A DNA stretch of 64,000 bases from assembly GCF_016598595.1 (NCBI RefSeq), contig NZ_CP066786.1:2379501-2443500 (forward strand), given 5' to 3'. The position numbers and the translations under genes are program-made. Under the pieces are notes generated by a model. That model saw only the letters and a list, made by a program, of their open reading frames with translations, was not told the DNA's origin and did not search any database. Each line of letters starts with the position of its first letter. Within the stretch, counting starts at the first letter, position 1. Positions 32,701-57,945 of the stretch are shown piece by piece. Source of the DNA: Martelella lutilitoris (GTDB taxonomy: Bacteria; Pseudomonadota; Alphaproteobacteria; Rhizobiales; Rhizobiaceae).

Positions 32701-35700
32701 TCGCCCCGAAGGAAATCGTCGAGATATCAAGGTCGGCTTCCGGTCCGGAAACCGTGACGCTGTTGGCGCTGGACGACGTCGAAACCGCACCGCCGCCGCC
32801 GCCGATCGACTGCGCCAGAACGCCGTGGGAGAAGGAGCCGTATGTCGTGGTCGTGCCCTTCGACTGCGACGAGCCCTTTTTCTCGACGCCGACATAGACA
32901 TTGCCCCCGTAACCGCCATCGCCGCCGGAAGCCCCGGTATTGGCCGATAGCGTGACGCCGACATCGAAGGAGGGGTGCGCCTTGACCCATTCGGAGAACT
33001 TGACCTTGGTTTCCTTCTCGAATTCGAAGGCGTGGCCGATGGAACTGGTGCCGGAGCCCCCCTGCCCGCCGCCGCCGCCGATCGACTGAGCAACCAGGCC
33101 GGGAGAAGAATCGCCCTTGGTCAGGACCGTGCCGTTGTTCCAGGCATAGACGCTGCCGCCATCGCCGCCCGCGCCGCCGGTGGCGCCGATGCCGACCTCA
33201 AGCTTGTTGTCAGCGTCGACATCGCCGGTTCCGCCGCCGCCCTTGCCGCCGCCGCCGCCGATTGAGTGAACGAAGAGGCCGGTTGAATTCGCGCCATAGG
33301 TCCTCACCGCGCCGGTATCGGCAACGCCGCCATAGGCCGAGCCGCCGTCGCTGCCGCTGCCGGCATTGCCGCCAATGGAGAGCGAAAGATTGAAGGTGGA
33401 GCTGCCGAAGTAATCGATGCCGTCGGTCTCGCCGGTTCCGCCCTGGCCGCCGCCGCCGCCGATCGATTGCACCAGCATGCCGTCGGCAAAATCGCCGCTG
33501 GTCTTGATGGTCCCGTAATTATGCGCGTAGGCCTTGCCGCCCGCTCCCGCCGCGCCGCCATCGCCGCCGAGAGAGAAGGTCAGCGAAGCGGTGACGGATT
33601 CGCCCTCGAGTTTCTTCTGAAGCTCGGCCTCGCCGTCCGTCAGCTTGGCGAAAGCGCTCTGCAGCGTCGCGGTTCCGGCCGCAGCCGTCGAATCGCCGCC
33701 CTGGCCGCCGCCGCCGCCGATCGATTGCACGTGGAGGCCAAGCGAACCCTTCTCGGCGGTTGTAACCGCGCTGCCCTTCTCCAGGATCGCCTTGGCTTCT
33801 CCGCCGTCGCCGGCGACGCCGCCGTCTCCGCCATGGGAGACGGACATGGAAAGCGCGAAACTGTCACCCTTCTCATCGAAGGGCAGGCCGAAGGCGAGCG
33901 CACTTGCACTCGACGCGCCGCCGCTGCCGCCGCCACCGCCGATCGACTGCACGAGAAGCGCGGTCGCATCATAGCCGGAGGTCGAAACCGCGCCGGAATG
34001 GGTCAACTCCGCTTCTCCGCCATTGCCGCCGTCACCACCGGTGCCGCCGGTCGCAATCGCGATGTCGAAGGTCTTGCCGGCGGAAACCGACTTGGCCGCG
34101 CCGCCCGAGCCACCGCCGCCGCCGATGGACTGGATCACTATCCCGAGAGCATTGACGCCTGCCGTTGAAACCGTGGTTCCGGACGACGTGGTGACACTTG
34201 CCGTATCGCCATTGCCTCCGCTACCGCCGCTGCCGCCGACGGCATCCGAAAAGCCGATACCCCAGGCCGTGGCCTTGCCCCCGGCGCCGCCGCCGCCGCC
34301 GATCGACTGCGCGATAATGCCGGCCGCGTAACTTCCGTTCGTGGTGATATTGCCGTTGGAGGTGATCGTAACCTCATTGCCATCCCCGCCATTGCCGCCA
34401 TCGCCGCCGACGGCAACAAAAAGCCCGCTCTTGTTGCGGCCCGTGCCGCCGCCGCCGCCGATCGACTGGGCGACGATGCCGTGCGCATCCGCGCCGTAGG
34501 TTGTCAGCACGCCGTAGTTCTGGACCGAAGCCGTGCCGCCGTCGGAGCCGTTGCCGCCGGACTTGCCGCTTCCGCCAATGCCGCCGATCGCGCCCGAACC
34601 GGTGTTGTCGCCGCCGCCGCCGCCAATCGACTGGGCCAGAATGGCGATGCCGCCGCCCAGCAGAACATCGCCTGTGCTCTGCGTGCCGGTCTTGCCCGCC
34701 GCATATCCGCCATGGGTGGTGACCGCCGCCTTGTTGGTCACCGTGACGCCTGCCGCATAGGCGCCGCTTGACGCGCCGCCGACCTGTTGCGAAGCGGAGT
34801 TGGTCACCGCCGAATAATAGCTGTAGGACTGCGTGGCGATCTCGCCGCTCGACGTCAAAAGCCCGCCGCCGCCGCCGATCGACATCGCCACGATGCCGTG
34901 GGAATCGACGCCGTAGACGTCGATTGCCCCATAATTCTTGACGGTGACTTCTCCGCTTGTGTTCGACGCGATATTGGCGTCGCCCCACTGGAACCCGCCA
35001 TTGCCGTCCCAGACATAAACGCCGCCGCCCGCCCCGGACGAGATTGCCGCGATGCCGTGGGAATGATCACCCTTGGTGGTGATCGCGAAGTCGCTCTTGA
35101 CGTAAACGCTGCCGCCGGTGCCGCCCTTGCCGTTCTGCGTCGTCGTCGCCGTCGAGGCAACCTGGCCCAGCCCGCCGAGCGAGGTGGCCTGAATGCCGCT
35201 GGAATGGGCACCCGTCGTGGCAATCGAGCCGCCGCCCGTGACCTGGGCATAGACGGCGCCCGCCGCACCGCCTTTCTTCGAGGCATCATAATAGTTCAGG
35301 CTGGAGCCGCCATAGCTGGCCGCAACGATGCCGCCCGAATCGTCTCCGGACGTCTTGATCGTGGTGCCGGATGCACCGTAGACCGTCACGGAGGCCTTGC
35401 CGCCATTGCCGCCGTCATAACCGCCGCCCGAGCCATTCGTGTTGACCGGGCCCTGCCCGCCATAGCTTATGGCCGTCAGCGCAGCGCCAGTCTCACGCTT
35501 GTCAAAGGTCCAGTCATCACCAATCTTGCCGGCGGCAACCGTCGAAACCGTACCGGTAAAGGCACTGTCGCTCGAACCGAGCGTCACCGTCGCGGCGTCC
35601 GCATTCCCGCCGGTCCCGCCTTCCATGCGGTTCCAGGAAATATTGTTCGGGCTGTTGCCGCCGTAGGAGGCTGCGAGGATGCCGCCGCCCGCATTGCTCG

Positions 35701-36544
35701 AGGCGATCGTATTGACGTCGCCCGACACCGTCACGGTGGCGGTATTGCCCGAACCGCCGGTCAGCGCCCAGGTCGCGCCTCCGCGACTGATGGCGACGAT
35801 GCCGAAACCGTTCGCCGAGATATCGGCTGTGGTGCCCACCGTGACCGCGCCGGCATTGCCGCCATAGGTCGCATAGGCCGTGCCGCCGCCGCTGACGACA
35901 TAGATGCCGTGGCGGGCCGCGTTCTGAATGATCGCCTTGTTGTAGACGGCAACGGAGCCGCCCGCCCCGCCGGAATATTTGTCGGCGTCCTTGACCTCGC
36001 CGCGGAAGGCGTTGCTGCCTGCGGAGACAACGCCGATCGCATCGGAATGCCTCCGGGTGTAGAAATGCGTTCCGCCCGGCGCACTGAAGGAAATCATCGA
36101 AGCGACATCCGCTTCCGCCGAAACGTCGATCGTCGCGGTGTTGGTGATCGTGATGTTCAGGCCCTGCTGCGGGTGGACCGGCGGCATGTCGTACTGGCTG
36201 TAGTAGACATTGCTCGACTGGTACCAGGTCATCGCCCCGCCATAGGCATATTGCGGCGCGGTCACGGTCCCGGAGGAGGAGATGGTGCAGGCGAACGTGG
36301 TTGTGCCGATCGCGCCCGAATTGTTGACGTAGTTGCCGGTCGAACTCGGATCGCAGACTGCCTGCGCATAGACCCGGCTGTAGCCGCGCGAATAAAACGG
36401 CACCGGAACGCCGGAAAGCGCGCCGGCAAGCGCCGTGGACTGAAACAGCAGCGAGGAGGCGATCCAGCGTTTCCGCATGCCCGTCCGCACCGGCTTGCCG
36501 GCCTTGCCGTTCCCGGAGCGCTTGCCGCCGACAGCTTTGGTCAT
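29765..36544 (-). CDS. Giant glycine-rich autotransporter
   Basis: A type Va autotransporter of about 2259 residues. The ATG at 36544 follows GGGGGGACGAAAC and gives an extended basic signal region (MTKAVGGKRSGNGKAGK) ending near VYAQA. The passenger is a long stack of repeats of about 50-100 residues, each with a short motif of the type GI-x-AQSIGGGGG. I count about 16 clear SIGGGGG-like copies plus several weaker SYGG/SLGG forms near the N-terminus. The last 280 or so residues form a beta barrel (from about SCVWSRALGG) ending GYRF, with the terminal Phe that BamA recognises. The large size, Gly/Ser/Thr richness and low Cys fit a surface adhesin. No protease triad is seen. Confidence 0.9.
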   Translation of the reverse strand: MTKAVGGKRSGNGKAGKPVRTGMRKRWIASSLLFQSTALAGALSGVPVPFYSRGYSRVYAQAVCDPSSTGNYVNNSGAIGTTTFACTISSSGTVTAPQYAYGGAMTWYQSSNVYYSQYDMPPVHPQQGLNITITNTATIDVSAEADVASMISFSAPGGTHFYTRRHSDAIGVVSAGSNAFRGEVKDADKYSGGAGGSVAVYNKAIIQNAARHGIYVVSGGGTAYATYGGNAGAVTVGTTADISANGFGIVAISRGGATWALTGGSGNTATVTVSGDVNTIASSNAGGGILAASYGGNSPNNISWNRMEGGTGGNADAATVTLGSSDSAFTGTVSTVAAGKIGDDWTFDKRETGAALTAISYGGQGPVNTNGSGGGYDGGNGGKASVTVYGASGTTIKTSGDDSGGIVAASYGGSSLNYYDASKKGGAAGAVYAQVTGGGSIATTGAHSSGIQATSLGGLGQVASTATTTQNGKGGTGGSVYVKSDFAITTKGDHSHGIAAISSGAGGGVYVWDGNGGFQWGDANIASNTSGEVTVKNYGAIDVYGVDSHGIVAMSIGGGGGLLTSSGEIATQSYSYYSAVTNSASQQVGGASSGAYAAGVTVTNKAAVTTHGGYAAGKTGTQSTGDVLLGGGIAILAQSIGGGGGDNTGSGAIGGIGGSGKSGGNGSDGGTASVQNYGVLTTYGADAHGIVAQSIGGGGGTGRNKSGLFVAVGGDGGNGGDGNEVTITSNGNITTNGSYAAGIIAQSIGGGGGAGGKATAWGIGFSDAVGGSGGSGGNGDTASVTTSSGTTVSTAGVNALGIVIQSIGGGGGSGGAAKSVSAGKTFDIAIATGGTGGDGGNGGEAELTHSGAVSTSGYDATALLVQSIGGGGGSGGASSASALAFGLPFDEKGDSFALSMSVSHGGDGGVAGDGGEAKAILEKGSAVTTAEKGSLGLHVQSIGGGGGQGGDSTAAAGTATLQSAFAKLTDGEAELQKKLEGESVTASLTFSLGGDGGAAGAGGKAYAHNYGTIKTSGDFADGMLVQSIGGGGGQGGTGETDGIDYFGSSTFNLSLSIGGNAGSGSDGGSAYGGVADTGAVRTYGANSTGLFVHSIGGGGGKGGGGTGDVDADNKLEVGIGATGGAGGDGGSVYAWNNGTVLTKGDSSPGLVAQSIGGGGGQGGSGTSSIGHAFEFEKETKVKFSEWVKAHPSFDVGVTLSANTGASGGDGGYGGNVYVGVEKKGSSQSKGTTTTYGSFSHGVLAQSIGGGGGAVSTSSSANSVTVSGPEADLDISTISFGATNGAAGDGGNVTVYAANIYTQGFAANGVIAQSLGGGGGHAIQTGYAMDKVSIKFGAQGQSDGTRNGGNVLVETIGGTKITTSGDNANGILGQSIGGGGGFAGVALGTYNAVNDESISGVISSIFGGGSDNGHADGQNVIVNHYGSINTSGKRSVGIAGQSISGGGGFLTAAANNFDQSGFVQKQAPSSAHTVNISVKENASIVTSGDGAFGILAQTVSGGGGVSADLAQKLNAFYRSYGGTFTNSQYYYSNDSGIADQTGYVAVTVDGSVSTSGKYAHGVVAQAVGGSGGIFLQNGKTYAGTLANFNNQQDSKVAGNAQNGNLEVTINGSVKVSDPTAWGLWSQATGPAMTLTVGSGGVLSGSTAAASNGEYGGGAIYSSGADRTVLMQYNHGTVTGNIVHHKFAGASSAADGVMQTAARAGSSLFVNQGTGTFVTGHIADAGGILNAGDINPGGAWNTIRTRVTGDLLGVGTKDAGSAYDVADLGLSTAFSPFSYFERNRRIDWRTENSSKGGLLTGLDVDMENGTADTLLIEGDFAGTWGVDINANALLPNTRTEFLKAEGMDTAELSALSSLVFDFTDVTKSAEGWHGFSVADAHFADNGVSLGRNAGGVSRALQQAWDRIADGSATEVKFAEDEISLGAAFGAFHQADPDTFDDMLLELASQTAAAPLANSPSAAIAAANSVLSCPAFATTGVMMDEGSCVWSRALGGETTQGQHGDSSGYTQSVGGLQFGGQAALADGWFLGSGLTYENSWFRNDSGSEKMEQQSFTGAVALKKEAGPWLFGFVGGAGYNWGDSKRYINLDTLSATARGEPDSAMVFARARASYEFAFGDDYYMRPKVDFDVINMHQFSYTETGAGAMNLMVDGNSDTAFGVTPGVEFGARIPFREDWPARLYGDLGVSFLTADSWETTSRFAGLSSMDSFSTFTPIADTVGHVTLGLDLAKRQGMELKFQYDGAFADDYQSHTGSIRFGYRF

Positions 36545-36993
36545 GTTTCGTCCCCCCGGGCGCATTTTCTGGTTTGCGGAATCTTTTGAGAAAGCCCGGG
36601 AATCACTCTTGATGATTTCCCGTCTCTTAGACAGGCGCAAAATGTCCGTGGCCGGACCTTTTCTGGCGTTTTGCCGCCTTATAGCTGCCGTAAATTGATG
36701 AATTCCCCTAAAAGTTGCACTGTTTTTCGTCGGGCATCGTCATAGGGAATGACCGTCAGATCGCCGTGAAGCGAGTGATGAAATCAGTCTTGCCGCGCAC
36801 GGCGCGCGACCGCCTCGCCCGCCAGGCCGTCAGCCGCATAAACTGGGACGGAATCGGATCAAAGCTGCTGCCCGCCGCAGGGGTGGAAAGCGAACAAACT
36901 GCCACACCACCAGCCACCGATGCATTCCCGACTGCCACACCTGCCAGAAAAATGAAGTAAATACATGCGCTTAGCGCGTATGAAAAGGGAGAG
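36545..36993. other. Intergenic region between the autotransporter and tRNA-Cys
   Basis: A 449-bp stretch that is fairly AT-rich around 36660-36740. It should contain the autotransporter promoter on the minus strand. Reading frames of 80 to 100 codons exist on both strands, but they lack ribosome-binding sites and recognisable motifs, and one simply translates through the tRNA. Confidence 0.5.
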
Positions 36994-41543: not shown

Positions 41544-42674
41544 TCAACCCGCGACCCGCCCTCCGCTCATCGGCTCGGGCACGCCGGTCGTCGTCGGAAA
41601 GCTGAAGGGAAGGCCGCGCATGGCCCTCACGGCAAGAAAGGCGAAGCATTCGGCTTCGATCGCGTCGCCGCGCCAGCCGACGGATTCCGCCGGCACCGCC
41701 TCGACGCCTGCGCGGGTCTGAAGCATCGCCATGATCGCCGGGTTGCGCCTGCCGCCGCCGCAAACGACGAGACGGTCGGGGCGCGCGGGCAGAAGATCGA
41801 GCGCCTTGCCGACGGCGGCGGCGGTAAAGGCCGTCAGCGTCGCAGCACCCGTTGCAGGATCCAGCCCTTCGGCCATGGCAGAGGAGAAATCGAAACGGTC
41901 GAGCGATTTCGGATAGGGCGCGGCGAGATAGGGATGCCCGAGCAACTTTGAAAGCCGCGCCTCGTCCACCGTGCCGGAAAGCGCAAGCGCGCCGTCACGG
42001 TCCATCTCGCCAAGGCCGTTTTCCTTCATGAAGTCGTTGAGCGGCGCATTCGCCGGGCCGGTATCGAAGGCGATCAGTCGATCGCCGCCGTCCCACCATG
42101 TGACATTGGCAACGCCGCCGAGATTGAGCACCGCCGTTTTGCCGGAGGTATCGAGGCTTTTCAGCAACGCCTGGTGATAGCCGGCCGAAAGCGGCGCGCC
42201 CTGCCCGCCGGCGCGCACATCCGCCGTGCGGAAATCATAGGCCACCTTGCAGCCGAGGATGCGGCTCATCAGCGCCCCGTCGCCCAGCTGGCGGGTATCG
42301 CCCAGGCGATCCTTCGTCGGCGCGCGATGCAGCACGGACTGGCCGTGAAAGCCGACAATGCCGATATCGGCCATCGACAGTCCCTCGGCCTCGACCAACG
42401 CTTTCACCGCGTCGGATTGCGCCCGCGTCAGCACCTTTTCGGCCTCGGCGAAGATCGTCGGCTCCGACCCTTCGAAATTCCAGGCGCGGGCCGCCGCCAG
42501 CGTTTCCTCCAGCAGATCGCGCGTCGCCTGCGGATAGGGAGCCAGCGTATAGGCGCCGAACGTCTCCACGGTGACGCCGTCGGTTTTCAAAAGCGCGACA
42601 TCGATATTGCCGTCGAGCACGGTTCCGGTCATCAGACCGACGGCCCAGACGGGTTTGAAATCCTGCACCATCAT
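41544..42674 (-). CDS. anmK: Anhydro-N-acetylmuramic acid kinase
   Basis: AnmK opens the 1,6-anhydro ring of anhydro-MurNAc and phosphorylates it to MurNAc-6-phosphate, the substrate of MurQ. The 376-residue product has the ASKHA-type N-terminal block [18 protein letters not shown]. The phosphate-2 region is [26 protein letters not shown] is present, and the adenosine motif is [14 protein letters not shown]. The start at 42674 overlaps the preceding stop as ATGA, so translation is coupled. It is the last gene of the operon that begins with murQ. Confidence 0.95.
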
Positions 42675-43687
42675 TCCGCTCCGTTGATAAGGTCGCTGAC
42701 CCGCCGCCTCAGCGTCATGATGCCGCTTTCGGTATGGCGGCTCGGGTGGACACGGTTGGTCAGCAGCGTCCAGGCATGGCCGCGCGCGAAATCCACGCAC
42801 AGCGACGTGCCGGTGAAGCCGGTATGGCCGACCGTCCCTTCGGAGCACAGCGCGCCGCCATGCCAGTTCTCGTAAGGCCGCTCCCAGCCATGGGTCCGTC
42901 TTTCGGACAACGGCTCGCGCATCAGTTTCACCGCTGGATCACCGGCGACATCGCGCTGCAAAAGACCGGTCGCGTGGTCAAGCACGGCATCAACCGTGCC
43001 GAACAGGCCGGCATGGCCGGAGCCCTGAAGCGCGTGGCAATTCTCGTCATGCACCGCGCCGCAGATCACCCGTCCGCGCCAGCTGCAGCACTCGGTGGCC
43101 GCCGTCTTCTCCGGATCGGCGGAAAAGGCAAAGCCCGGCCCCGGATCGAGATCGCGGACGGTCTTGCCGGAAATCCGCTCCAGCGCGATGCCGAGGAGAA
43201 TGAAATTGATGTCGGAATAGACGGGTGTTTCGACCCGTTTCCATTCGCGCTGCAGCACGAAGGCGCGCAGCCGGTCCGGATCGTCGCCATAGGTATAGAT
43301 CGGCTCGACCGCAGGAAAGGGCGTCTGGTGGCCGAGGCACTGGCGGAAGGTGACCTGCCGCTCCCAGCAATCGGGAGCATATTGCCGGAAGTCGGGGATG
43401 CACGCGGTCAGCGGTTCATCGAGGTCGATCGCCCCCTCCCCGGCCAGCGCCAGAATACGCTCCGTGGTGAAAATCACCTTTGTCAGCGAGGCCAGATCGA
43501 ACCATGTTTCGGTCGTCATCGGCCGCGTTTCCGGCTCCAGCGCCGCCGCGCCGCAGGCTTGCGTCAGCCGCCTGCCCTCGCCATCCACAAGCCCGAGAAC
43601 GCCGCCGGGAATGCGGCCTTCGTCAACCGACGCCTTCAACGCGGCGAAGGCCCTGTCGAAGCGATCCGAAAAATTTGAGGTCATCAC
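42671..43687 (-). CDS. Serine hydrolase (class C beta-lactamase/DD-peptidase fold)
   Basis: A 338-residue penicillin-binding-like enzyme without a signal peptide. The catalytic SxxK is SLTK at residues 67-70, and the YxN-type motif is YSD at 157-159. Near the C-terminus [12 protein letters not shown] takes the place of the usual K/HTG box. Such enzymes hydrolyse D-peptides, esters or beta-lactams. Being cytoplasmic and inside a MurNAc operon, the simplest idea is cleavage of a muropeptide or D-amino-acid peptide after uptake; this is inference. It overlaps its neighbours on both sides by ATGA. Confidence 0.88.
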
Positions 43688-45432
43688 GCCTCTTCCCTCC
43701 GCGCCATGTGGTCGTCGCCAAACCGCAGCCAGTCGGCCTTCGGCGGCTCATAGCCCGCCGGGCGCACCAGCGAGGGCACTTCGGTTGTATCAAGCCGATA
43801 CTCCTGCCGTCGCCGGTCGATGCTCGGCACGGCGGCAATCAGCCGCCTGGTGTAAGAGTGCTTCGGCGAAGACAGCACCGAAGCGGCGTCGCCGATCTCG
43901 ACGATCTGCCCGGCATAGACCACGGCGATGCGATGGGCGATGCGCTCGACCACGGCCATGTCGTGGGTGACGAACAGGTAGGAGAGGTTCATGTCGCGCT
44001 GCAGCGCGGTCAGAAGGTCCAGCACCATCGCCTGCACCGAGACGTCGAGGGCGGAGACCGCCTCATCCAGCACCACGACGGAAGGTTTCAGCATCAGCGC
44101 GCGGGCAATGCAGAGGCGCTGGCGCTGGCCGCCGGAAAATTCATGCGGATAGCGGGTGAGCGCGTTTTCGGGCAGGCCGACGCGTTCCAGGAGTTCGGCC
44201 ATGCGGGCGCGGGTCTCGGCGTTCAGACGCCCGCCGGTGGCAATCACCGGTTCGGCGAGGATGCTGTCGACGCGCAGGCGCGGATTAAGCGAGGCGTAGG
44301 GGTTCTGGAACACCATCTGGATCGGATCGCCATGGGCGGCAATGCTTGCCCCCTCGCCCAGATGAAACGCGCCGCGCGTCGGCTGCGTCAGCCCCATGAT
44401 GGCACGCGCCGTGGTCGATTTTCCCGAGCCGCTTTCGCCGACGATGCCGAGCGTTTCACCGGGCATCAGGTCGAAATCGATGCCGTCAACCGCATGCACG
44501 GCACCGCTCTGGCGACGGAAGAAGCCGGAGGTGACGGGAAACCGCACGGTCAGGTCCTCGACGATCAGCGCGGGTCTGGCCTCTCCAGCCTGCGCACGCG
44601 AGAAATCCGTCCGAACGGCGCGGCCGTCGTCGAAGTGCGGCACGGCCTTAAGGAGATGTTGCGTATAGGGATGCTGCGGATTGTCGAGCACGTCATCGGT
44701 CGGCCCCTGCTCCACCGCCTCGCCCTGTTGCATCACCATCACCTTGTCGGCAATGCCGGCGACGAGGCCGATGTCGTGAGTGATGAAGATCAGGCCCATG
44801 TCGCTTTCGCGCTTCAGTTCGGAGAGCAGCGCCAGGATCTGCGCCTGCACGGTCACATCAAGCGCGGTCGTCGGCTCGTCGGCGATCAGAAGGCGCGGAT
44901 TGCAGGAGAGCGCGGTGGCGATCATCACCCGCTGCAACATGCCGCCGGAGAGCTGGTGCGGATGGTATTTCAGCCGCCGCTCGGCATCGGGAATGCGCAC
45001 GCGTTTCAGGGCATCGACGGCTGCGTTCATCGCCTGTCTGCCGGTCAGCCCGTGATGCAGGCGGAAGCTTTCAGCAATCTGCTCGCCGATCGTGTGCACC
45101 GGATTGAGCGAGGTCATCGGCTCCTGGAAGATCATGCCGATCTCGCGGCCCCGGATCCTTGCCAGATCCTTCTCGGGCACAGCGGCAAGGTCCGCGACTT
45201 CGCCGGAACCGAGCGCGAAATCGATCCGTCCCTTGGTGATCCTGCCTCCGCCGAAATCGACAAGCCGGTTGAGGCAAAGCGCGGTGACGGACTTGCCCGA
45301 GCCGCTCTCGCCGACGATCGCCAGCGTCTCGCCCGCATCCAGCGTGAAATCGATGCCGTGGACGACCTCGTTTCTGACCGGGTCCTTGCCGAAGCCCACA
45401 TGCAGGTCGGAGACGGAAAGAAGACGGCTCAT
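43684..45432 (-). CDS. Dipeptide/oligopeptide-type ABC transporter, fused double ATPase
   Basis: A 582-residue fusion of two nucleotide-binding domains, as in GsiA/YejF. Walker A GESGSGKS occurs in both halves (near residues 38 and 330). Signatures are LSGGMLQRV and FSGGQRQRL, and Walker B motifs are LLIADEPTTALD and VVVLDEAVSALD. It energises the two permeases encoded directly upstream. Both junctions are ATGA overlaps. Confidence 0.94.
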   Translation of the reverse strand: MSRLLSVSDLHVGFGKDPVRNEVVHGIDFTLDAGETLAIVGESGSGKSVTALCLNRLVDFGGGRITKGRIDFALGSGEVADLAAVPEKDLARIRGREIGMIFQEPMTSLNPVHTIGEQIAESFRLHHGLTGRQAMNAAVDALKRVRIPDAERRLKYHPHQLSGGMLQRVMIATALSCNPRLLIADEPTTALDVTVQAQILALLSELKRESDMGLIFITHDIGLVAGIADKVMVMQQGEAVEQGPTDDVLDNPQHPYTQHLLKAVPHFDDGRAVRTDFSRAQAGEARPALIVEDLTVRFPVTSGFFRRQSGAVHAVDGIDFDLMPGETLGIVGESGSGKSTTARAIMGLTQPTRGAFHLGEGASIAAHGDPIQMVFQNPYASLNPRLRVDSILAEPVIATGGRLNAETRARMAELLERVGLPENALTRYPHEFSGGQRQRLCIARALMLKPSVVVLDEAVSALDVSVQAMVLDLLTALQRDMNLSYLFVTHDMAVVERIAHRIAVVYAGQIVEIGDAASVLSSPKHSYTRRLIAAVPSIDRRRQEYRLDTTEVPSLVRPAGYEPPKADWLRFGDDHMARREEA

Positions 45433-46268
45433 GCCTCGGCCCTCCTTGAACGCGGGTCAAGAATATCGCGCAGCGCGTCGCCCAGAAGGTTGAAGCCCAA
45501 AATGCCGATCATGATGGCGAAGGCGGGAAAAACCAGCAGCCAGGGCGCCATTTCCATCAGGTTGCGCGCCTCGCTCAGCATCAGCCCGAGGGAGGCTTTC
45601 GGCGGTTGGGTGCCGAGACCGAGGAAGGAAAGCCCGGCCTCAGTCAGAAGCGCCCAGGCGAGCGCCAGCGTCACCTGCACGGTGAGCGGCGCGACCAGAT
45701 TGAGCAGCATGTGGCGCGAGAGAATATAGCGGCGCGACGAACCGAAGGTGCGCGCGGCATCGACGAATTCGCGGGTCTTCAGCGACAGCGCGGGCCCACG
45801 CACCACGCGGGTGAAGATCGGCGTGTAGACGAAGGCGATCGCCATCACGCTCGTCCATGTTCCGGGGCCGACAATGGTGATGATCAGGAGCGCCAGCAGG
45901 ATGGCCGGAAAGGCCAGAAGTACATCCATCAGCCGCATGATCGTGCCGTCCCAATAGCTGCCGAACCAGGCGGCGGCCAGACCCAGCACGATGCCGGCGA
46001 CGGTCGCCAGCGCCACGGAGGCGAAGGAGACGATGAACGACTGGGCGATGCCGATCATCAGGCGGCTCGCGACATCACGGCCGAGAAGGTCGGTGCCCAT
46101 CCAGTAGGTCGCGTTCGGGGCGTGCAGCCGGTCGATGCGGAATTGCATCAGCGGATCGTGCGGCGTGAGCCCGACAAGGCCGAGCACCGCGATGATGATG
46201 TACAGCGTGACGATGGTGCCGCCGATGCGACCGCTCGGATGGGCGAAGATGGAGCGCAGGAGCTGCAT
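45429..46268 (-). CDS. Peptide-type ABC transporter permease (DppC-like)
   Basis: A 279-residue inner-membrane permease with about six membrane segments. The coupling EAA loop is FVDAARTFGSSRRYILSRHMLLN, and the C-terminal signature is GFNLLGDALRDILDPRSR. It pairs with the DppB-like permease whose start codon region it abuts. The order in transcription is binding protein, DppB, DppC, ATPase. Confidence 0.93.
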   Translation of the reverse strand: MQLLRSIFAHPSGRIGGTIVTLYIIIAVLGLVGLTPHDPLMQFRIDRLHAPNATYWMGTDLLGRDVASRLMIGIAQSFIVSFASVALATVAGIVLGLAAAWFGSYWDGTIMRLMDVLLAFPAILLALLIITIVGPGTWTSVMAIAFVYTPIFTRVVRGPALSLKTREFVDAARTFGSSRRYILSRHMLLNLVAPLTVQVTLALAWALLTEAGLSFLGLGTQPPKASLGLMLSEARNLMEMAPWLLVFPAFAIMIGILGFNLLGDALRDILDPRSRRAEA

Positions 46269-47227
46269 TACTTGCCTCCCAGCCGGATGCGCGGATCGAG
46301 CGCCGCATAGGCGAGATCCACCAGCAGATTGACGATCATGAAATTGAAGGCGATGAAGAGGACGCTGCCCTGCACCAGCGCGTAATCACGCTGCAGGATC
46401 GCTTCCAGCACGGTGCGCCCGAGGCCCGGCAGCGCAAACACCTGTTCGACGATGACGGCGCCGCCCAGAAGATAACCGAACTCGACGCCCGAGACGGTCA
46501 CCACCGGGATCAGCGCATTCGGCAGCGCGTGGTGCCAGATGACGGAACGCGCCGGCACGCCCTTGGCGCGCGCCGTGCGGATGTAATCATCGGAGAGAAT
46601 ATCGAGCATCGCCGAGCGGGAAATGCGGGTGACGGCGGCGGCGAAGGCAAAGCCGAGCGTCAGCGCCGGCAGGATCATCTGCGCGAGGTTCTTCAGCGGG
46701 TCTTGCCAGAGCGGCGTGAACGTGCCCATGGCGGGCAGAACGCCGAACCAGACGGATAGCGCATAGATCGCCAGCAACGCGACGACGAAACTCGGCGTCG
46801 ACTGGCCGACCATGGCGACGATCCGGACGATGAGATCGGACGGCTTTTCCGCATGGGTGGCGGCGTAAATGCCGGCGGGAAGGCCGACGGCGAGCGCGAC
46901 GACCATGGACAGAAGCGCCAGTTCCAGCGTCAGCGGAAAGACGCGCAGGATAACCTCCATCACCGGCCTGCCATAGGTGACCGAGATGCCGAGATTGCCG
47001 TGCAGCACGCCGCCGAGCCAGTGCCAGTACTGGCCGAACCAGCTCTGGTCCATTCCGAAATAGGTTTCCAGTGACGCCCGCTGCGCCGGTGTCAGAAGGC
47101 CGGCCTCGGTTCCCAGCATCGCCGTGATGGCATCGCCGGGAACCAGCCTGATCGAGACGAAGACGAGGACGGATACCCCGAGCATGACCACAGGGAAGGT
47201 CACCAGTCGCCGGGTCAGATAGTTCAT
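46268..47227 (-). CDS. Peptide-type ABC transporter permease (DppB-like)
   Basis: A 319-residue permease with the DppB N-terminus (RRLVTFPVVMLGVSVLVFVSIRLVPGD). The coupling loop is DYIRTARAKGVPARSVIWHHALPNALIP, and GLGRTVLEAILQRDYALVQG is typical of the subunit. It follows the binding protein gene by 33 bp. Confidence 0.93.
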   Translation of the reverse strand: MNYLTRRLVTFPVVMLGVSVLVFVSIRLVPGDAITAMLGTEAGLLTPAQRASLETYFGMDQSWFGQYWHWLGGVLHGNLGISVTYGRPVMEVILRVFPLTLELALLSMVVALAVGLPAGIYAATHAEKPSDLIVRIVAMVGQSTPSFVVALLAIYALSVWFGVLPAMGTFTPLWQDPLKNLAQMILPALTLGFAFAAAVTRISRSAMLDILSDDYIRTARAKGVPARSVIWHHALPNALIPVVTVSGVEFGYLLGGAVIVEQVFALPGLGRTVLEAILQRDYALVQGSVLFIAFNFMIVNLLVDLAYAALDPRIRLGGK

Positions 47228-47260
47228 GGGGTATGCGCCTCTTGCTTCTTTTCTGCCCGG

Positions 47261-48784
47261 TTATTCGCTGACAGTAACGGCGGAAAGGCCGAAGAGCGAG
47301 CCCGTCGGGTTGGCCTCGAAACCGCTTACCTTGTCGTTTGCCGCGGTGTAGCTGTAGCCGGTGTAAAGCCAGATCCAGGGCGAGACCTCGGTGATGTGCC
47401 TGGAGAACTCGGCAAAGATCTCCTTGCGCTTCGCCGGGTCGGTCTCGACGCGGCCGTCCTGCATCAGGCTGTCGAGCGTGTCGTCGCCGTAATGGGCGAC
47501 ATGGGCGAGGTTGCCGTCCTTTGTCCAGTAGCGGTTATACATGGTATAGGGGTCGGTGCGCCCGCCGTTCAGCGCCACGGCCATGTCGAAATCGCCCTTC
47601 AGCCAGCGGTCGATATAGACGTTGAGTTCCATCATCTCGATTTCGAGGTCGATGCCGATCTCGCCAAGCTGCGACTGGATCACCTGCGCTTCGGCGGCTG
47701 CCGTCGGCGGCTCGCCGGTCGCCGCCATCACCTTGGCGGAAAAGCCGTCCTCATAGCCGGCCTCGGCCATCAGCGCCTTTGCCTTTTCGAGATCGGGCGT
47801 ATAGCAGAAGAGCTCGGACGGATCGGTCGCATAGGCAGGCATGGTCAGCGGCCCGGTTACCTTGCCCTCGCCCAGGAGCGCGGCGTCCAGCACGTCCTGA
47901 CGGTCGATGGCGCAGGAGATTGCCTGGCGGACCTTTTTTTCGGTCATCGCCCCGCGATCGGCGTTCAGCTGCAGCACATGATAGTTCAGCACCGGTTCGC
48001 GCGTCAGCGTCAGTCCCGGATTGTTCGGCACGAGCGTGGCGACCAGCGGATCATTGATCAGCGCGAAATCCACCTGATTGGTGCGCAGCGCCGCGAGGAT
48101 CGCGGTCTCATCGGGCAGGACCGAGATGTTGATGCCGTCGACGCCAACCTCGCCGCCCGCCCAGTTCGCGTTGGCGGCGAGCACCTCTCGGGAGTTCGGC
48201 TCCCAGCTTGTCAGAACGAAGGGGCCGGAGCCGAGCGTTTCCGTGCCGATCGTGCCCGCTTCGATGGCGCTTGCCGGCACGATCGCGGCATTGATCGAGG
48301 ACATCGCCGTCAGAAGCGGCACATCCGGCTGCGACAGATTGAAGACCACGGTCCCGTCATCCGGCGTGTCGATGCTTTCGATGGAGAGGAAGTTGGCGCG
48401 GGCCGAGGCACCGGTTTCCTCATTCAGGATCCGTTCGAAAGATGCTTTCACATCCGCCGGCATCACCTTGTCGCCATTGGAGAATTTCGCATCCGGGTCA
48501 AGCTTGAAGGTCAGCGTTCGGCCGTCTTCCGAGAATTCCCAGGACGTGGCGATCGCCGGCGCGATGTTGAGTTCGCTATCGGTGCGCACCAACGGCTCGT
48601 AGACGAGTTCCAGCAGGCGCAGCGACGAAAAAGCCGTCTGCTTGTGCGGGTCGAGACCGGTCGCATCCTGCGACCAGGCCATGTTCAGCGTTGCCGCGGC
48701 GGCCGGAACCGCCGCGCCCGCGACGCCGAGCGCTGCGGCAACGGCGACGGCGGAAACCAGATTCTTGAAACGGGGTCTTCCCAT
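47261..48784 (-). CDS. Periplasmic solute-binding protein, SBP_bac_5 (DppA/OppA) family
   Basis: A 507-residue binding protein. The frame opens at 48790, but GAGGGAA is best spaced from the ATG at 48784. The signal peptide ends near AAA-TLNMAWSQD. Family features are LDPHKQTAF, AIATSWEFSEDGRTLTFKLDPDAKFSNGD and VRQAISCAIDRQDVLDAALLG. The family binds peptides, nickel, glutathione or muropeptides. Position next to murQ and anmK suggests peptidoglycan fragments as ligand, not shown by sequence. Confidence 0.93.
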   Translation of the reverse strand: MGRPRFKNLVSAVAVAAALGVAGAAVPAAAATLNMAWSQDATGLDPHKQTAFSSLRLLELVYEPLVRTDSELNIAPAIATSWEFSEDGRTLTFKLDPDAKFSNGDKVMPADVKASFERILNEETGASARANFLSIESIDTPDDGTVVFNLSQPDVPLLTAMSSINAAIVPASAIEAGTIGTETLGSGPFVLTSWEPNSREVLAANANWAGGEVGVDGINISVLPDETAILAALRTNQVDFALINDPLVATLVPNNPGLTLTREPVLNYHVLQLNADRGAMTEKKVRQAISCAIDRQDVLDAALLGEGKVTGPLTMPAYATDPSELFCYTPDLEKAKALMAEAGYEDGFSAKVMAATGEPPTAAAEAQVIQSQLGEIGIDLEIEMMELNVYIDRWLKGDFDMAVALNGGRTDPYTMYNRYWTKDGNLAHVAHYGDDTLDSLMQDGRVETDPAKRKEIFAEFSRHITEVSPWIWLYTGYSYTAANDKVSGFEANPTGSLFGLSAVTVSE

Positions 48785-48847
48785 GATCATTTCCCTCGAG
48801 ATTATTGAGCGTTGCCGATGCGGCCTCCTGCCGGCACCGGAGAGACT

Positions 48848-49780
48848 TCAGCTATCGCGGCTTGTCGCCGTCTTCTGGTTGATCGCCTTGCGCAGGAAGC
48901 CGCCGGTCTCGTCCAGGAGATCGCGGCCCTCCTGCAGTTCCATATCCGTCAGCGCCAGGAGGATGGCGAGCTTGACGTCGTTTTTCGTCTTTTCGAGCAA
49001 TTTTTCAGCGGTTTCGGCCGGAACGTCCGCCGCCTCCATGACGATGCGAACGGCGCGCGCGTAAAGCTTGGCGTTGGAGACCGTCACATCGACCATCAGG
49101 TTCTCGTAGACCTTGCCGATGCGGACCATGCTGGCGGTGCTCAGCATGTTGAGGACGAGTTTCTGCGCCGTGCCGGATTTCAGCCTTGTGGAACCGGCCA
49201 GCACTTCCGGGCCGACGACCGGCGCAATCGAGATGTCGGCGATTTCGGCGATGGCGGAAGACGGATTGCAGGAAAGCGCGACAGTCGCCGCTCCGGTTTC
49301 CTTCGCATAGGTCAGGGCCCCGATGACGTAGGGCGTGCGCCCGCTGACCGCGATGCCGACGACGACATCCCGCGCCGTCAGGCCGATGGCCTTCAGGTCG
49401 GCAGCGCCCAGCGCCGGATCATCCTCTGCCCCTTCGACGGCGGTGGTCAGCGCCCTCTCGCCGCCGGCGATCAGGCCGACGACCATGCCGGGGGGAACGG
49501 AGAAGGTGGGCGGGCATTCGGAGGCATCGAGAACGCCGAGCCGGCCGCTCGTGCCCGCGCCGATATAGACAAGCCGGCCGCCGGCATCGAAGGCCTCGAC
49601 GATGCGATCGACAGCGCTCGCAATGGCGTCGGCCTCGCGGCCGACGGCAATCGCGGCCTCGCCATCCTCGGCATTGATCTTTCCGATGATTTCACGCGTC
49701 GACAGCAGGTCGAGATCAAGCGTGCGCGGATTGCGCCCCTCGGACACCAGCTTTTCCAGCTCGCCGGCCAGCAAATTCAT
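48848..49780 (-). CDS. murQ: N-acetylmuramic acid 6-phosphate etherase
   Basis: MurQ cleaves the D-lactyl ether of MurNAc-6-P to GlcNAc-6-P and lactate in the cytoplasm. The 310-residue SIS-domain protein has the signature [26 protein letters not shown], with Glu88 in the place of the catalytic acid of the family. It also has the second conserved block [29 protein letters not shown] lies 9 bp before the ATG at 49780. It is the first gene of the operon, facing the regulator gene across 271 bp. Confidence 0.96.
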
Positions 49781-50051
49781 GAATGCATTCCCCTTGTCTG
49801 CCGCGCGATGCGTTATTTTTATTGTCTTTCATCGCAGCGCTCGGGAAAGGCTATAATCACAAATTCCATTTGTCAAATTCATTACAGAATATTTTATTCC
49901 AATCGGCTCTGGCTCGTTTGTGCTGAAGAGTCCGGGCTCGCGCCCGCCTGCGTGAGGCCGTGAAACCGTTACGCTTTCGCAATCATTCCGTTGTATTCCG
50001 CGAAAAGGAATTTATTATTCCGGCATTTACACCGGCCGACCGAGGAAAACC
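49781..50051. promoter_or_regulatory. Divergent promoter region of murQ operon and murR-like gene
   Basis: An AT-rich 271-bp region between divergent genes. It contains GAATA-TTT-TATTC, a perfect inverted repeat at 49887-49899, and a cluster of ATTCC/GGAAT half-sites at 49985, 49995, 50007 (inverted) and 50017. The half-sites are spaced 10, 12 and 10 bp, one helical turn apart. GGAAT-N5-ATTCC at 50007-50021 resembles GGAA/TTCC palindromes known for RpiR-type regulators. The cluster lies 30 to 67 bp before the regulator's start. Assignment as its operator is inference. Confidence 0.65.
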
Positions 50052-50909
50052 GTGTCCGTTCTCAATGTGATAGAAGCCCAGCTTGACAATCTGGCTCCGG
50101 CGGACCGGCAGATCGGCCGTTTCATCCTCGACAATCCCGACGAGGTTCTCCGGCTTTCCTCCGCGCGCCTTGCCGAACGGACCGGCCGCAGCCAGTCGAG
50201 CGTGGTGAAATTCGCCCAGAAATTCGGCTTTTCCGGCTATCAGGAGATGAAACTCGCCGTCAGCAAGGCGAGAGCGCACGCCTGGCGGCCGCCCGGCGCG
50301 CTGCACAGCACGATAGAACTCGGCGACAGCCCGGCGGCGGTGGCGCAGAAGCTGCTTTCGAGCAAGATGCACGCCATGCAGCAGACCATCGCCGCCAATG
50401 ACGAGCGCGACATCGCCCGCGTCATGGACCTGGTCGACACGGCGGGCCGCATTCACGTGGCCGGCGTCGGCGCCTCCTCGCTGGTGGCGCGCGATTTCTG
50501 CCTCAAACTGCAAAAGCTTGGCCGTTATGCGCTTCACGATGCCGACAGCCATGTGCAGATGGCCAATGTCTCCGCCTCGAAGACCGGCGACGTTCTCTTT
50601 GCCCTTTCCCATTCGGGTACAAGCATCGAGACCGTGCGGATCGCCGAGCTTGCCGCAAGACGCGGCGCGACCGTCGTCTCGATCACCGGGCCGCAGCAGA
50701 ACCCGGTCGCGCGCGGCGCTGGCGTCACGCTCTACACGATTGCCGACGAGGAACGGGTGCGCTCGTCCGCCATCACCGCCCGCGACGCGCAGCTGATGCT
50801 GACGGATTTCCTGTTCATTCTGCTGCTGCAGCGGCAAAAGGATGCCGGCGATTATATCGCCGGCAGCGGCGAGGCGGTGACCGCGCTCAAGCTCGGCGCA
50901 GACAAATAG
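50052..50909 (+). CDS. MurR/RpiR family transcriptional regulator
   Basis: A 285-residue regulator with an N-terminal HTH_6 domain (LARLAERTGRSQSSVVKFAQKFGFSGYQEMK-type segment, about residues 35-70) and a C-terminal SIS sugar-phosphate-binding domain (HVAGVGASSLVARDFCLKLQKLG and FALSHSGTSIETVRIAE). It starts with GTG after GAGGAAAACC. Being divergent from murQ, it probably represses or activates the operon in response to MurNAc-6-P, as E. coli MurR does. Confidence 0.93.
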   Translation: MSVLNVIEAQLDNLAPADRQIGRFILDNPDEVLRLSSARLAERTGRSQSSVVKFAQKFGFSGYQEMKLAVSKARAHAWRPPGALHSTIELGDSPAAVAQKLLSSKMHAMQQTIAANDERDIARVMDLVDTAGRIHVAGVGASSLVARDFCLKLQKLGRYALHDADSHVQMANVSASKTGDVLFALSHSGTSIETVRIAELAARRGATVVSITGPQQNPVARGAGVTLYTIADEERVRSSAITARDAQLMLTDFLFILLLQRQKDAGDYIAGSGEAVTALKLGADK

Positions 50910-53750: not shown

Positions 53751-54833
<1,083 letters not shown>

Positions 54834-54882
54834 TTGAGGCTTCCGTCCGGCGCGCGATCCGGGTGCCTGTGAGATGTACTGA

Positions 54883-54908
54883 CAGCGGCTTTGCGGAGCC
54901 GCTGTTTT
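54883..54908 (+). terminator. Intrinsic terminator of recA
   Basis: A perfect 8-bp stem CAGCGGCT/AGCCGCTG with a 6-base loop, followed by TTTT. It begins 50 bp past the recA stop. Confidence 0.88.
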
Positions 54909-54996
54909 GTCCTGTCTGGACAGTGGCGACACCTGCCGCTAAAAGCCCGGGAAAGTCTCGGCAGACAACACCGATATATGAAGGGGCGTGGCACTC

Positions 54997-57651
54997 ATGA
55001 GTGGCGTGAATGAAATCCGGTCGACATTTCTCGACTTCTTCAAGCGGAACGGACACGAGGTCGTCGCTTCCAGCCCGCTTGTGCCGCATAACGACCCGAC
55101 CCTGATGTTCACCAATGCCGGCATGGTGCCGTTCAAGAACGTCTTCACCGGGCTTGAGCACCGTCCCTATTCGACCGCGACGACGGCGCAGAAATGTGTG
55201 CGCGCCGGCGGCAAGCACAACGATCTCGACAATGTCGGCTACACCGCGCGCCACCACACTTTCTTCGAGATGATGGGCAACTTCTCCTTCGGCGACTATT
55301 TCAAGGAACAGGCGATCTCGCTTGCCTGGGAGTTGATCACAAAGGAATTCGGCCTGCCGAAGGACAAGCTGCTGGCAACCGTCTACCACGAGGATGACGA
55401 GGCGTTCGAGCTCTGGCGCAAGATTGCCGGTCTCCCCGAGGACCGGATCATCCGCATTCCGACCTCCGACAATTTCTGGTCGATGGGCGATACCGGGCCC
55501 TGCGGCCCCTGCTCGGAAATCTTCTACGACCACGGCGAGCATATCTGGGGCGGGCCGCCCGGCTCCGCGGAAGAGGACGGCGACCGCTTCATCGAGATCT
55601 GGAATCTCGTCTTCATGCAGTACGAGCAGATCACGCCGGAACGCCGCGAGAACCTGCCGCGCCCCTCGATCGACACCGGCATGGGCCTCGAGCGCGTCGC
55701 CGCCGTGCTGCAGGGCAAGCATGACAATTACGATATCGACCTGTTTCAGAGACTGATCGGCGCTTCGGTCGAACTGACCGGGGTGAAGGCCGAGGGCGAG
55801 CGGCAGGCCAGCCACCGCGTGATCGCCGACCATCTGCGCGCCTCCGCCTTCCTGATCGCCGACGGCGTCCTGCCCTCCAACGAGGGCCGCGGCTACGTGC
55901 TGCGCCGCATCATGCGCCGCGCCATGCGCCACGCCGAGCTTCTCGGCGCCCGCGAGCCGATCATCTACCGCCTGCTGCCGACGCTTGTCAGCGAGATGGG
56001 CCGCGCCTATCCGGAACTCCAGCGCGCCGAGGCGCTGATCTCCGAGACGCTGAAGCTGGAGGAAACCCGCTTCCGCAAGACGCTGGACCGCGGCCTGACG
56101 CTTCTGGAAGAGGCGACCCGTGACCTCTCCAAGGGCGACAGCCTCGACGGCGAGACCGCCTTCAAGCTCTACGACACCTATGGCTTCCCGCTTGACCTGA
56201 CCCAGGACGCGCTCAGGGCGCGCGACATCCATGTCGATCTGACCGGCTTCCAGGACGCCATGCACCGCCAGCGCGCCGAGGCCCGCGCCCACTGGGCCGG
56301 CTCCGGCGACACGGCGACGGAGACCATCTGGTTCGAGCTGGGCGAGAAGCACGAGGCGACCGAGTTTCTGGGCTACGAAACCGAGAAGGCCGAGGGCGTG
56401 GTGCTGGCTCTCGTCAGGGACGGCGCCGCCGTGGAGAAGGCCGAGGCCGGCGATACGGTTGCCGTCGTCGTCAACCAGACGCCGTTTTACGGCGAGTCGG
56501 GCGGCCAGATGGGCGACACCGGCACGATCGCGACCGACGCGGCCAGGCTCCGGGTGACCGATACGCAGAAGAAGGGCAACGGCCTCTTCATTCATTTTTG
56601 CGAAGTCCTGGAGGGCGCCGTGGCGCTGGGCGAACCGGTCAGTCTTGAAGTCGATCATGCACGGCGCGCGCGGCTGCGCGCCAACCACTCCGCGACCCAT
56701 CTGATCCATGAGGCCTTGCGTCAGAAGCTCGGCTCGCATGTGGCCCAGAAGGGCTCGCTGGTCGCGCCCGAACGGCTGCGCTTCGACATTTCGCACCCCA
56801 AGCCGATGACGAGCGAGGAGCTCGCCGTGGTCGAGGACATGGCCAATGAGATCGTGCTGCAGAATGCGCCGGTTTCCACCCGGCTGATGGGCGTTGACGA
56901 CGCCATCGCCGAAGGTGCCATGGCGCTGTTCGGCGAGAAGTACGGCGACGAGGTGCGCGTCGTTTCCATGGGCACGGCCACCGCCGGCGAGAAGGCCGGC
57001 AAGACCTACTCACTCGAACTGTGCGGCGGAACCCATGTGCGCGCCACCGGCGAGATCGGACTGATCCGCATCGTCGGCGAGAGTGCGGTGGGCGCCGGCG
57101 TGCGCCGCATCGAGGCGCTGACCGGCGTGGATGCGCGCCGCTACCTCACCCGGCAGGATGATAAGGTGAAGGCGCTCGCCGCCGCCCTCAAGGTGCAGCC
57201 GGACGAGGTGGCAAACCGCGTCTCGGCCCTGGCCGAGGAGCGGCGCCGGCTGGAACGCGAGCTTGCCGAAGCGCGCAAGCAGATCGCGCTCGGCGGCTCC
57301 GGCCCGTCCGACGAAGCGGAAAGGATCGGCGACATTTCGCTTGCCGCCAAGGTGCTTTCGGGCGTTGCCGCCAAGGAGCTGAAGGGCCTTGCCGACAGCG
57401 CCAAGAAGGACAGGAGCCGCACCGTGGTCGTCTTCATCAGCGTGGCGGAAGACAACAAGGCCAGCGTCGTGGTTTCCGTCACGGCGGACCTCACCGACAG
57501 CGTCTCCGCGGTCGACCTCGTGCGCGCGGCCTCGGAAGCGCTTGGCGGCAAGGGCGGCGGCGGCAGGCCGGACATGGCCCAGGCGGGCGGCCCGGACGGC
57601 GACAAGGCGGAAGCCGCAATTGCCGCCATCCGCAACACGCTCCAGGGCTGA
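54997..57651 (+). CDS. alaS: Alanyl-tRNA synthetase
   Basis: Class II synthetase, 884 residues. The aminoacylation domain begins [29 protein letters not shown]. The editing domain carries the zinc motif [11 protein letters not shown] and [13 protein letters not shown]. The C-Ala (DHHA1) domain ends [13 protein letters not shown]. The frame opens at a GTG (54988), but the ATG at 54997 has better spacing from AAGGGG. The recA-alaS order is common in alphaproteobacteria. Confidence 0.97.
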
Positions 57652-57668
57652 GGCCTATTGCGCAAGAA

Positions 57669-57695
57669 GAACCGCGTTTCCCGGAAACGCGGTTC
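57669..57695 (+). terminator. Hairpin after alaS
   Basis: A perfect 12-bp stem GAACCGCGTTTC/GAAACGCGGTTC with a 3-base loop, 17 bp past the alaS stop, followed by TCGGTTTGC. It likely ends the alaS transcript. Similar CCGCGTTTCCCGG sequence recurs near 57882. Confidence 0.7.
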
Positions 57696-57716
57696 TCGGT
57701 TTGCTGACAAGCCCCT

Positions 57717-57910
57717 TTCCCGGTCATCTTCGGACTTGACCCGGCCGGCGCGTCACAAGCTTGGTCGGCAGTCTCGAAGCGTTTCCAGGAAAAATGGATA
57801 CCGGTTCTCCGTGCTGAATTGCGCAAGACAACAGATTTGGCGCTCTCGCGCTTCGCAGAGAAGCGGAAGCGCCCCCGGGACCGCGTTTCCCGGCACCGCG
57901 ATTCTGAGCT
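57717..57910. repeat. Mosaic of intergenic repeat elements
   Basis: This stretch lies between alaS and dusA. It holds CCGGTCATCTTCGGACTTGA (57720 region), then GCGTTTCCAGGAAAAATGGA (57779) leading into ACCGGTTCTCCGTGCTGAAT and GCGCAAGACA. After that comes a CTTCGCAGAGAAGCGGAAGC hairpin and a second CCGCGTTTCCCGG copy. Sequences of this kind are dispersed intergenic repeats in rhizobial genomes. Predicted frames across it look like misread repeats, not genes. Confidence 0.65.
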
Positions 57911-57945
57911 ATTCGTCTGTCTGATGGCCGAACGATGCCGAAGCG

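Follow-up and report, generated by a model that had tools for sequence, protein, structure and literature searches.

Gene content and layout of the operon

We describe here a seven-gene operon for the breakdown of N-acetylmuramic acid (MurNAc) and its anhydro form (anhMurNAc), found in a 64,000-nucleotide stretch of Martelella lutilitoris contig NZ_CP066786.1 (the window), which encodes an ATP-binding cassette (ABC) importer alongside the enzymes and is read divergently from a murR-type regulator gene. Family searches place the operon on the minus strand, running from murQ at 49780 down to anmK at 41544, and identify its parts and the elements next to it as follows:

50052..50909, plus strand: murR, divergent regulator of the MurR/RpiR family with HTH_6 and SIS domains (Pfam, NCBIfam)
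50007..50021, no strand: candidate MurR operator 1, near murR, one mismatch to GGAATA-N3-TATTCC (motif search)
49886..49900, no strand: candidate MurR operator 2, near murQ, one mismatch to GGAATA-N3-TATTCC (motif search)
48848..49780, minus strand: murQ, MurNAc-6-phosphate etherase, 310 amino acids (TIGR00274, 406 bits, cut-off 302)
47261..48790, minus strand: SBP_bac_5 binding protein with an N-terminal signal-like stretch (291 bits)
46268..47227, minus strand: permease B, Opp/Dpp type (BPD_transp_1)
45429..46268, minus strand: permease C, Opp/Dpp type (BPD_transp_1)
43684..45432, minus strand: fused two-domain ATPase (two ABC_tran stretches)
42671..43684, minus strand: class C-type serine hydrolase, 337 amino acids, no visible signal peptide (PF00144, 111 bits)
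41544..42674, minus strand: anmK, anhMurNAc kinase, 376 amino acids (PF03702, 238 bits; NF007141, 481 bits, cut-off 352)

As a preliminary description of the region had it, the named families lie at these positions with murR divergent (Pfam and NCBIfam matches), and the genes are tightly packed, the successive gaps in order of transcription being 57, 33, -1, -4, -1 and -4 bases; two junctions are ATGA overlaps (permease C to ATPase and hydrolase to anmK) and two are overlaps of a single base. The likely start of anmK is the ATG at 42674, which gives 376 amino acids and makes the listed reading frame too long, and that of the hydrolase lies at 43684 (337 amino acids). MurQ shares 53% identity with its Escherichia coli counterpart and keeps both glutamates that align with residues 83 and 114 of the latter, which we take to be catalytic. 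MurR and its E. coli namesake are 39% identical across 247 aligned columns; against the NCBIfam MurR equivalog model the window protein scores 170 bits, below the cut-off of 408. No phosphotransferase system (PTS) protein of the MurP type is encoded among the seven operon genes (41544-49780), where the ABC importer is found instead.

Conservation of the importer with anmK and murQ

A scan of genome contigs with the binding protein yielded 37 loci, which were scored against the window proteins; the binding protein recorded for Martelella lutilitoris is 96% identical to that of the window. All seven genes occur together in 28 of these, from Martelella, Nitratireductor, Agrobacterium, Neorhizobium, Rhizobium, Pannonibacter, Devosia, Aminobacter and other genera, and the co-location of anmK, murQ and the transporter, on which the preliminary description had set store, is thus conserved. 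Three of the nine incomplete loci (numbered L008, L016 and L025) are clipped by contig ends. Two others, from Anaerolineae (L030 and L037), hold the binding protein, permeases, hydrolase and anmK, in L030 also murQ, and have no ATPase of the window type. Their binding proteins are 55 and 61% identical to that of the window; because these are fairly close while the hydrolase (about 90 bits) and anmK (about 140 bits) are distant, comparison of the sequences suggests that the gene set was assembled separately in Anaerolineae.

The hydrolase offers a second anchor. At E <= 1e-80, 25 of the 397 genomes surveyed in the order encode it, and we compared 24 of its neighbourhoods together with the window, three of the 24 appearing to be L022-L024 and so overlapping with the 37-locus sample; because counting relied on phmmer with proteins of the window and the loci as reference, distant types may have been missed. 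An SBP_bac_5 protein lies near the hydrolase in 23 of these 25 cases (22 of the 24 neighbourhoods), anmK in 22 (21 of the 24) and murQ in 18 (the window and 17 of the 24 neighbourhoods, with matches of only 200-220 bits in L107 and L114). The transporter is of the window type in 16 (15 neighbourhoods and the window) and of other types in seven, namely divergent with separate ATPases in L106, L107, L108 and L114, downstream of anmK in L109 and L112, and more distant in L111. The importer appears to have been exchanged beside the same hydrolase in L106-L109, L111, L112 and L114, and anmK is retained in five of these seven (L106, L107, L109, L112 and L114). The best argument for a role of the transporter in the pathway is that different members of one transporter superfamily stand beside the same hydrolase-anmK pair, a variety that points to function rather than to one inherited block.

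A dipeptide-epimerase-like gene of the enolase superfamily accompanies the hydrolase in five of the 24 neighbourhoods and also adjoins the Anaerolineae cluster L030 and the Embleya cluster L131, which would fit a peptide-bearing substrate. The L030 protein scores 112 and 115 bits with two L-Ala-D/L-Glu epimerase models and 208 bits with that of the N-acetyl-D-Glu racemase DgcA, all below the cut-offs, such that the epimerase name is a family-level guess. Separately, L011, L019, L022, L033, L108, L110 and L111 have genes for a sugar-type ABC transporter next to murR or to the hydrolase, comprising an SBP_bac_1-like protein, permeases and a MalK-like ATPase, some of them identified by eye.

Comparable sets occur in other phyla, as L030 (Chloroflexota), L130 and L131 (both Actinomycetota) hold the binding protein, permeases, hydrolase, anmK and murQ. 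A search of plasmids with the binding protein (E <= 1e-100) yielded 17 records, 15 from Rhizobium or Allorhizobium (60-80% identity) and two from actinomycete replicons (about 40%), and gene content was examined in three of them. Plasmid pRtrCIAT899c of Rhizobium tropici CIAT 899 bears the full set together with murA and a NagK-like gene. The Nonomuraea and Embleya replicons both encode the binding protein, permeases, AnmK, MurQ, a MurR-type regulator and a protein that matches the hydrolase weakly (52 bits in Nonomuraea, 41 bits in Embleya), to which Nonomuraea adds an ATPase and Embleya ATPases and an epimerase-like gene. Queried with the Nonomuraea binding protein, 1306 of 7996 scored proteins match at E <= 1e-60, and the named relatives among the 120 matches listed are actinomycetes, with generic protein names. 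Overall, the gene comparisons support assignment of the transporter to an (anh)MurNAc breakdown operon.

Candidate MurR operators

The spacer between murR and murQ contains two copies of the palindrome GGAATA-N3-TATTCC with one mismatch each, where shuffled 64 kb sequences give a mean of 0.02 matches. Across 31 alphaproteobacterial loci we count 54 sites in 630,821 bases, 49 of which fall within the 29,900 bases of control region, and the control region holds at least one site in 30 of the 31 loci, L023 having none. As the control windows were defined after the motif had been seen, this result speaks for consistency and is not an independent test. In E. coli, MurR is relieved by MurNAc-6-phosphate, and judging from the motif the operon is probably under MurR control as well, with the palindromes as candidate operators. 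Additional operator-like sites lie outside the control windows in L019 and L022. A wider MurR regulon was considered and rejected: the window genome has 11 sites with at most one mismatch, against one for a reversed control, and two of the 11 are those of the window while eight lie mostly in or beside genes that look unrelated by eye.

A murA-family gene and a NagK-like kinase gene are inserted between murR and murQ in L011, L013-L018, L020, L025-L028, L033 and L132. The insertion spans 6746-8883 in L011, whose murA product scores 532 bits with TIGR01072 (cut-off 393), and such loci mostly show two operator-like sites, one before murR/murA and one before murQ. MurA catalyses a committed step of wall synthesis.

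Binding protein and serine hydrolase

The binding protein has both the Pfam match and the fold of the SBP_bac_5 family. Residues N408-G409-G410-R411 are invariant in our alignment of binding proteins (A2), and Gly410, a glycine in 52 of 52 operon binding proteins, aligns with the DppA aspartate that binds the alpha-amine of the peptide, a difference from DppA/OppA. As an argument for a ligand other than a dipeptide, the missing aspartate is weakened by its absence from 17 of the 18 other binding proteins of the window genome. The nearest solved sequences are generic SBP_bac_5 proteins, and the structural neighbours include members of the family for sialic acid (5za4) and agropinic acid (6hlx). 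Elsewhere the genome encodes a YejA-like (L049) and a YepA-like (L048) binding protein, which score 417 bits against one another; their names rest on this likeness, on size and on the order of the genes, all within this genome. With scores of 37 bits for L049 and 41 bits for L048, they are not closely related to the binding protein of the operon.

The hydrolase carries S66-x-x-K69, Y156-S-D158 and H287-T-G289, corresponding to the SxxK, YxN-like and HTG motifs whose roles in class C-type serine hydrolases are familiar; S66, K69, Y156-S-D158, H287 and G289 are invariant in 37 aligned proteins and T288 is nearly so. It thereby has the motifs of an AmiE-type (PF00144) enzyme, the Bacillus subtilis AmiE being, we presume, a PF00144 protein. 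Identity with E. coli PBP4B/YfeW is 27% over 309 columns, and PBP4B is also the best curated family match, at 65 bits and short of its cut-off of 385. The structure model has a mean predicted local distance difference test score (pLDDT) of 93.4, and a fold search with it did not separate amidase, carboxypeptidase and esterase. Because no signal peptide is visible by eye in the sequence, the hydrolase probably acts in the cytoplasm.

A proposed route for muropeptide uptake and breakdown

The model we favour, and regard as fairly probable, is that the operon is a MurR-controlled system for the import and breakdown of (anhydro)muropeptides in which a cytoplasmic amidase-like hydrolase feeds AnmK and MurQ. 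In the periplasm, the binding protein would capture (anhydro)MurNAc-peptides, with or without GlcNAc (N-acetylglucosamine), for inward transport by the two permeases and the fused ATPase. The hydrolase may then split the amide between the lactyl group and L-Ala, as an amidase of the AmiE kind, or trim the peptide. By family knowledge, AnmK would open and phosphorylate anhMurNAc to MurNAc-6-phosphate, MurQ would remove D-lactate from the latter to yield GlcNAc-6-phosphate, and MurNAc-6-phosphate would relieve MurR as it does in E. coli. The enzymatic steps thus follow from protein families, while we infer the transporter substrate and the hydrolase activity.

Several observations weigh against this model. 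The operon is patchy: at E <= 1e-130, an ortholog of the binding protein is encoded by 16 of the 397 genomes surveyed in the order. Transporter genes without anmK and murQ, which the preliminary description had named as evidence to the contrary, are encountered at the margin only: L031, L034 and L036, from metagenome-assembled Anaerolineae genomes, are 3 of the 37 loci and hold a lone binding protein without permease, anmK or murQ matches, and L035, whose contig starts inside the binding-protein gene, has permeases and neither anmK nor murQ. Within the hydrolase set, anmK is absent from L108, L110 and L111 and an SBP_bac_5 protein from L110 and L113; epimerase-like neighbours are found in a minority of clusters, and the actinomycete hydrolase matches are weak (52 and 41 bits). 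Since 17 of the genome's 18 other binding proteins are also without the alpha-amine aspartate, that residue tells little about the ligand, and the hydrolase fold matches esterases, D-peptidases and beta-lactamases alike. Finally, the window genome also contains a Yej-like cluster (L049), the orphan YepA-like protein (L048), two AmpD-like proteins (below family cut-offs) and one NagZ-type protein (above its cut-off), and a minimal pathway therefore needs neither the importer nor the hydrolase.

Other assignments for the two proteins must be set beside uptake of muropeptides. The transporter might carry a free sugar, anhMurNAc or MurNAc, in replacement of MurP, with the hydrolase acting on something else, much as the E. 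coli operon pairs the sugar importer MurP with a PF00144-related protein and as the sialic acid and agropinic acid proteins among the structural neighbours would allow; we consider this unlikely, however, given that E. coli YfeW has a signal-like start which the hydrolases here do not, that 22 of 25 genomes retain anmK near the hydrolase, and that some clusters have epimerase-like neighbours. Rather less room is left for an importer of free murein peptides that lies beside anmK and murQ through shared regulation only, since such an importer would need neither gene; the glycine of all 52 operon binding proteins at the alpha-amine position also argues against it, weakly in view of the other binding proteins of the genome, and MppA-OppBCDF, which imports the free murein tripeptide, differs in being a free-peptide importer outside MurNAc operons. 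That an ordinary dipeptide, nickel or opine transporter came to lie in the operon by chance would agree with the generic character of the nearest solved sequences, but is very improbable in light of the seven genes found together in 28 of 37 loci and the comparable sets in other phyla.

An alternative for the hydrolase alone, compatible with muropeptide import and overlapping with it in probability, is that of a DD- or LD-carboxypeptidase or an esterase rather than an amidase. The best curated match to PBP4B, though at 65 against 385 bits, and the fold neighbours (R61 DD-peptidase, D-peptidases and esterases) are in keeping with it, whereas AnmK requires a sugar freed of its peptide, and its gene overlaps that of the hydrolase; as the AmpD-like proteins could supply that sugar, we hold a carboxypeptidase or esterase to be a real possibility, if on balance a doubtful one.

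MurNAc recycling elsewhere in the genome and apparent loss of the AmgK step

The window genome was searched over 4,787,079 bases on 3 contigs. It has a single AnmK match, the operon copy, and a family profile search of it returned no match to the AmpG family. All 11 other operon-bearing genomes have an AnmK match at the operon coordinates, which is the only one in 10 of them, Pannonibacter (L019) having a second.

We used NF045761 for MurU, a model that is unspecific in that 6 of 14 control genomes match at E <= 1e-25 and no match passes its cut-off. Eight of the 11 genomes with the operon have one match each, of 120-168 bits, and the remaining three, all Martelella, have none at E <= 1e-25; the eight adjoin AddB in every case and a TsaE-AmgK fusion in seven, the exception being Devosia (L074). 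Within the window genome, the candidates for MurU were rejected: the best match (88 bits) is a heptose-1-phosphate guanylyltransferase-like protein, a second adjoins dTDP-sugar-type genes, and the others of the six, in a look by eye that excluded C1:2055865, are GalU-like or other nucleotidyltransferases. A TsaE-AmgK fusion used as query is matched throughout in Agrobacterium cavarae and in its TsaE part only in all four Martelella (L076-L079, the window genome being L077). AddB follows directly after TsaE in the window genome, with amgK and murU missing between them; in the other three Martelella, the 1.5 kb of flanking sequence showed no AddB. From these gene contents, Martelella appears to have lost the AmgK step, and in the window genome murU seems to be gone as well. 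With AmgK absent from all four Martelella, MurQ is therefore probably the only MurNAc outlet, making AnmK-MurQ the probable sole outlet for wall MurNAc in the genus, and the operon would therefore serve recycling of the cell's own wall as well as scavenging.

Relation to known systems

ABC import of muropeptides is known from the same order, where YejBEF-YepA performs it in Agrobacterium tumefaciens (PMC9790009; also PMC10838918). Both that system and the one described here are ABC importers whose binding protein is of the peptide type, for muropeptides in A. tumefaciens and putatively so here; they differ in that YepA is encoded separately and served by yejBEF, whereas the window transporter is complete and lies inside the murR-murQ-anmK operon. 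The preliminary description had contrasted a dedicated ABC route with AmpG and MurP; the placement of the transporter in an (anh)MurNAc operon holds in 28 of 37 loci and in other phyla, but the contrast itself is beside the point, YejBEF-YepA being known in the order (PMC9790009).

The E. coli murR/murQ-murP-yfeW divergon (L133), described in PMC5061867, shares with our locus a divergent murR, murQ and a related serine hydrolase, and differs in its PTS importer MurP in place of an ABC system, in the signal-like start of YfeW and in the position of anmK outside the divergon. The notion that the serine hydrolase is an addition to the MurNAc operon consequently falls, E. coli murQ-murP-yfeW already having a PF00144 hydrolase. 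B. subtilis has a murQ-murR-murP-amiE-nagZ-ybbC cluster with a MurNAc-L-alanine amidase gene (PMC5061867); murQ, murR and the putative amidase gene are common to both, AmiE being likened by family, while the B. subtilis system has a PTS importer and degradation outside the cell, and anmK is not named among its genes. Caulobacter is without MurQ and uses the AmgK-MurU route (PMC13046382, PMC11980594), Streptomyces coelicolor has MurQ without MurP (PMC5061867), and mycobacterial recycling is treated in PMC6572805 and PMC13041923, the latter a 2026 preprint that posits an unknown MurNAc transporter.

Already known, then, are ABC muropeptide import in the order and a murQ operon with a PF00144 hydrolase in E. 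coli. New are the composition and control of the operon, its enclosing a single anmK, the occurrence of similar sets across three phyla and the apparent loss of the AmgK step in Martelella; relative to E. coli, the new features are the ABC importer in the place of MurP, the hydrolase without signal peptide and the inclusion of anmK. We found no description of such an importer in a murQ/anmK operon among the titles, abstract beginnings and passages of the open-licence literature, a weak negative. Uptake of wall fragments, a cell's own and those of others, by cells without AmpG or MurP matters in several lineages, and the operon, of which the laboratory strain Rhizobium tropici CIAT 899 has a copy, offers a concrete candidate importer with its regulator, enzymes and operator. 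Taken with the apparent loss of the AmgK step, a single anmK whose operon is probably inducible predicts that Martelella are bacteria which burn wall MurNAc and do not reuse it directly.

Taken jointly, the data raise a broader proposal, which we put forward tentatively and rate a little short of an even prospect. Beside AmpG and YejBEF-YepA there may exist one more class of importers for muropeptides: ABC systems that are inducible and under MurR control, with an NGG(R/S)xDP signature in their binding proteins and a cytoplasmic serine amidase beside or instead of the zinc enzyme AmpD, spread over Alphaproteobacteria, Chloroflexota and Actinomycetota. This class would have replaced the AmgK-MurU shunt in Martelella and could be the missing MurNAc-peptide importer of actinomycetes that have MurQ and no MurP.

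Other features of the window

The operon lies in what looks like a core chromosomal setting, with recA, alaS and dusA at 53751-58956 of the window, a few kilobases from murR. On the other side, the minus strand at 29765-36640 holds an open frame of 2291 amino acids without a Pfam match at E <= 1e-8, which we would guess to be perhaps a large polar-growth protein of rhizobia.

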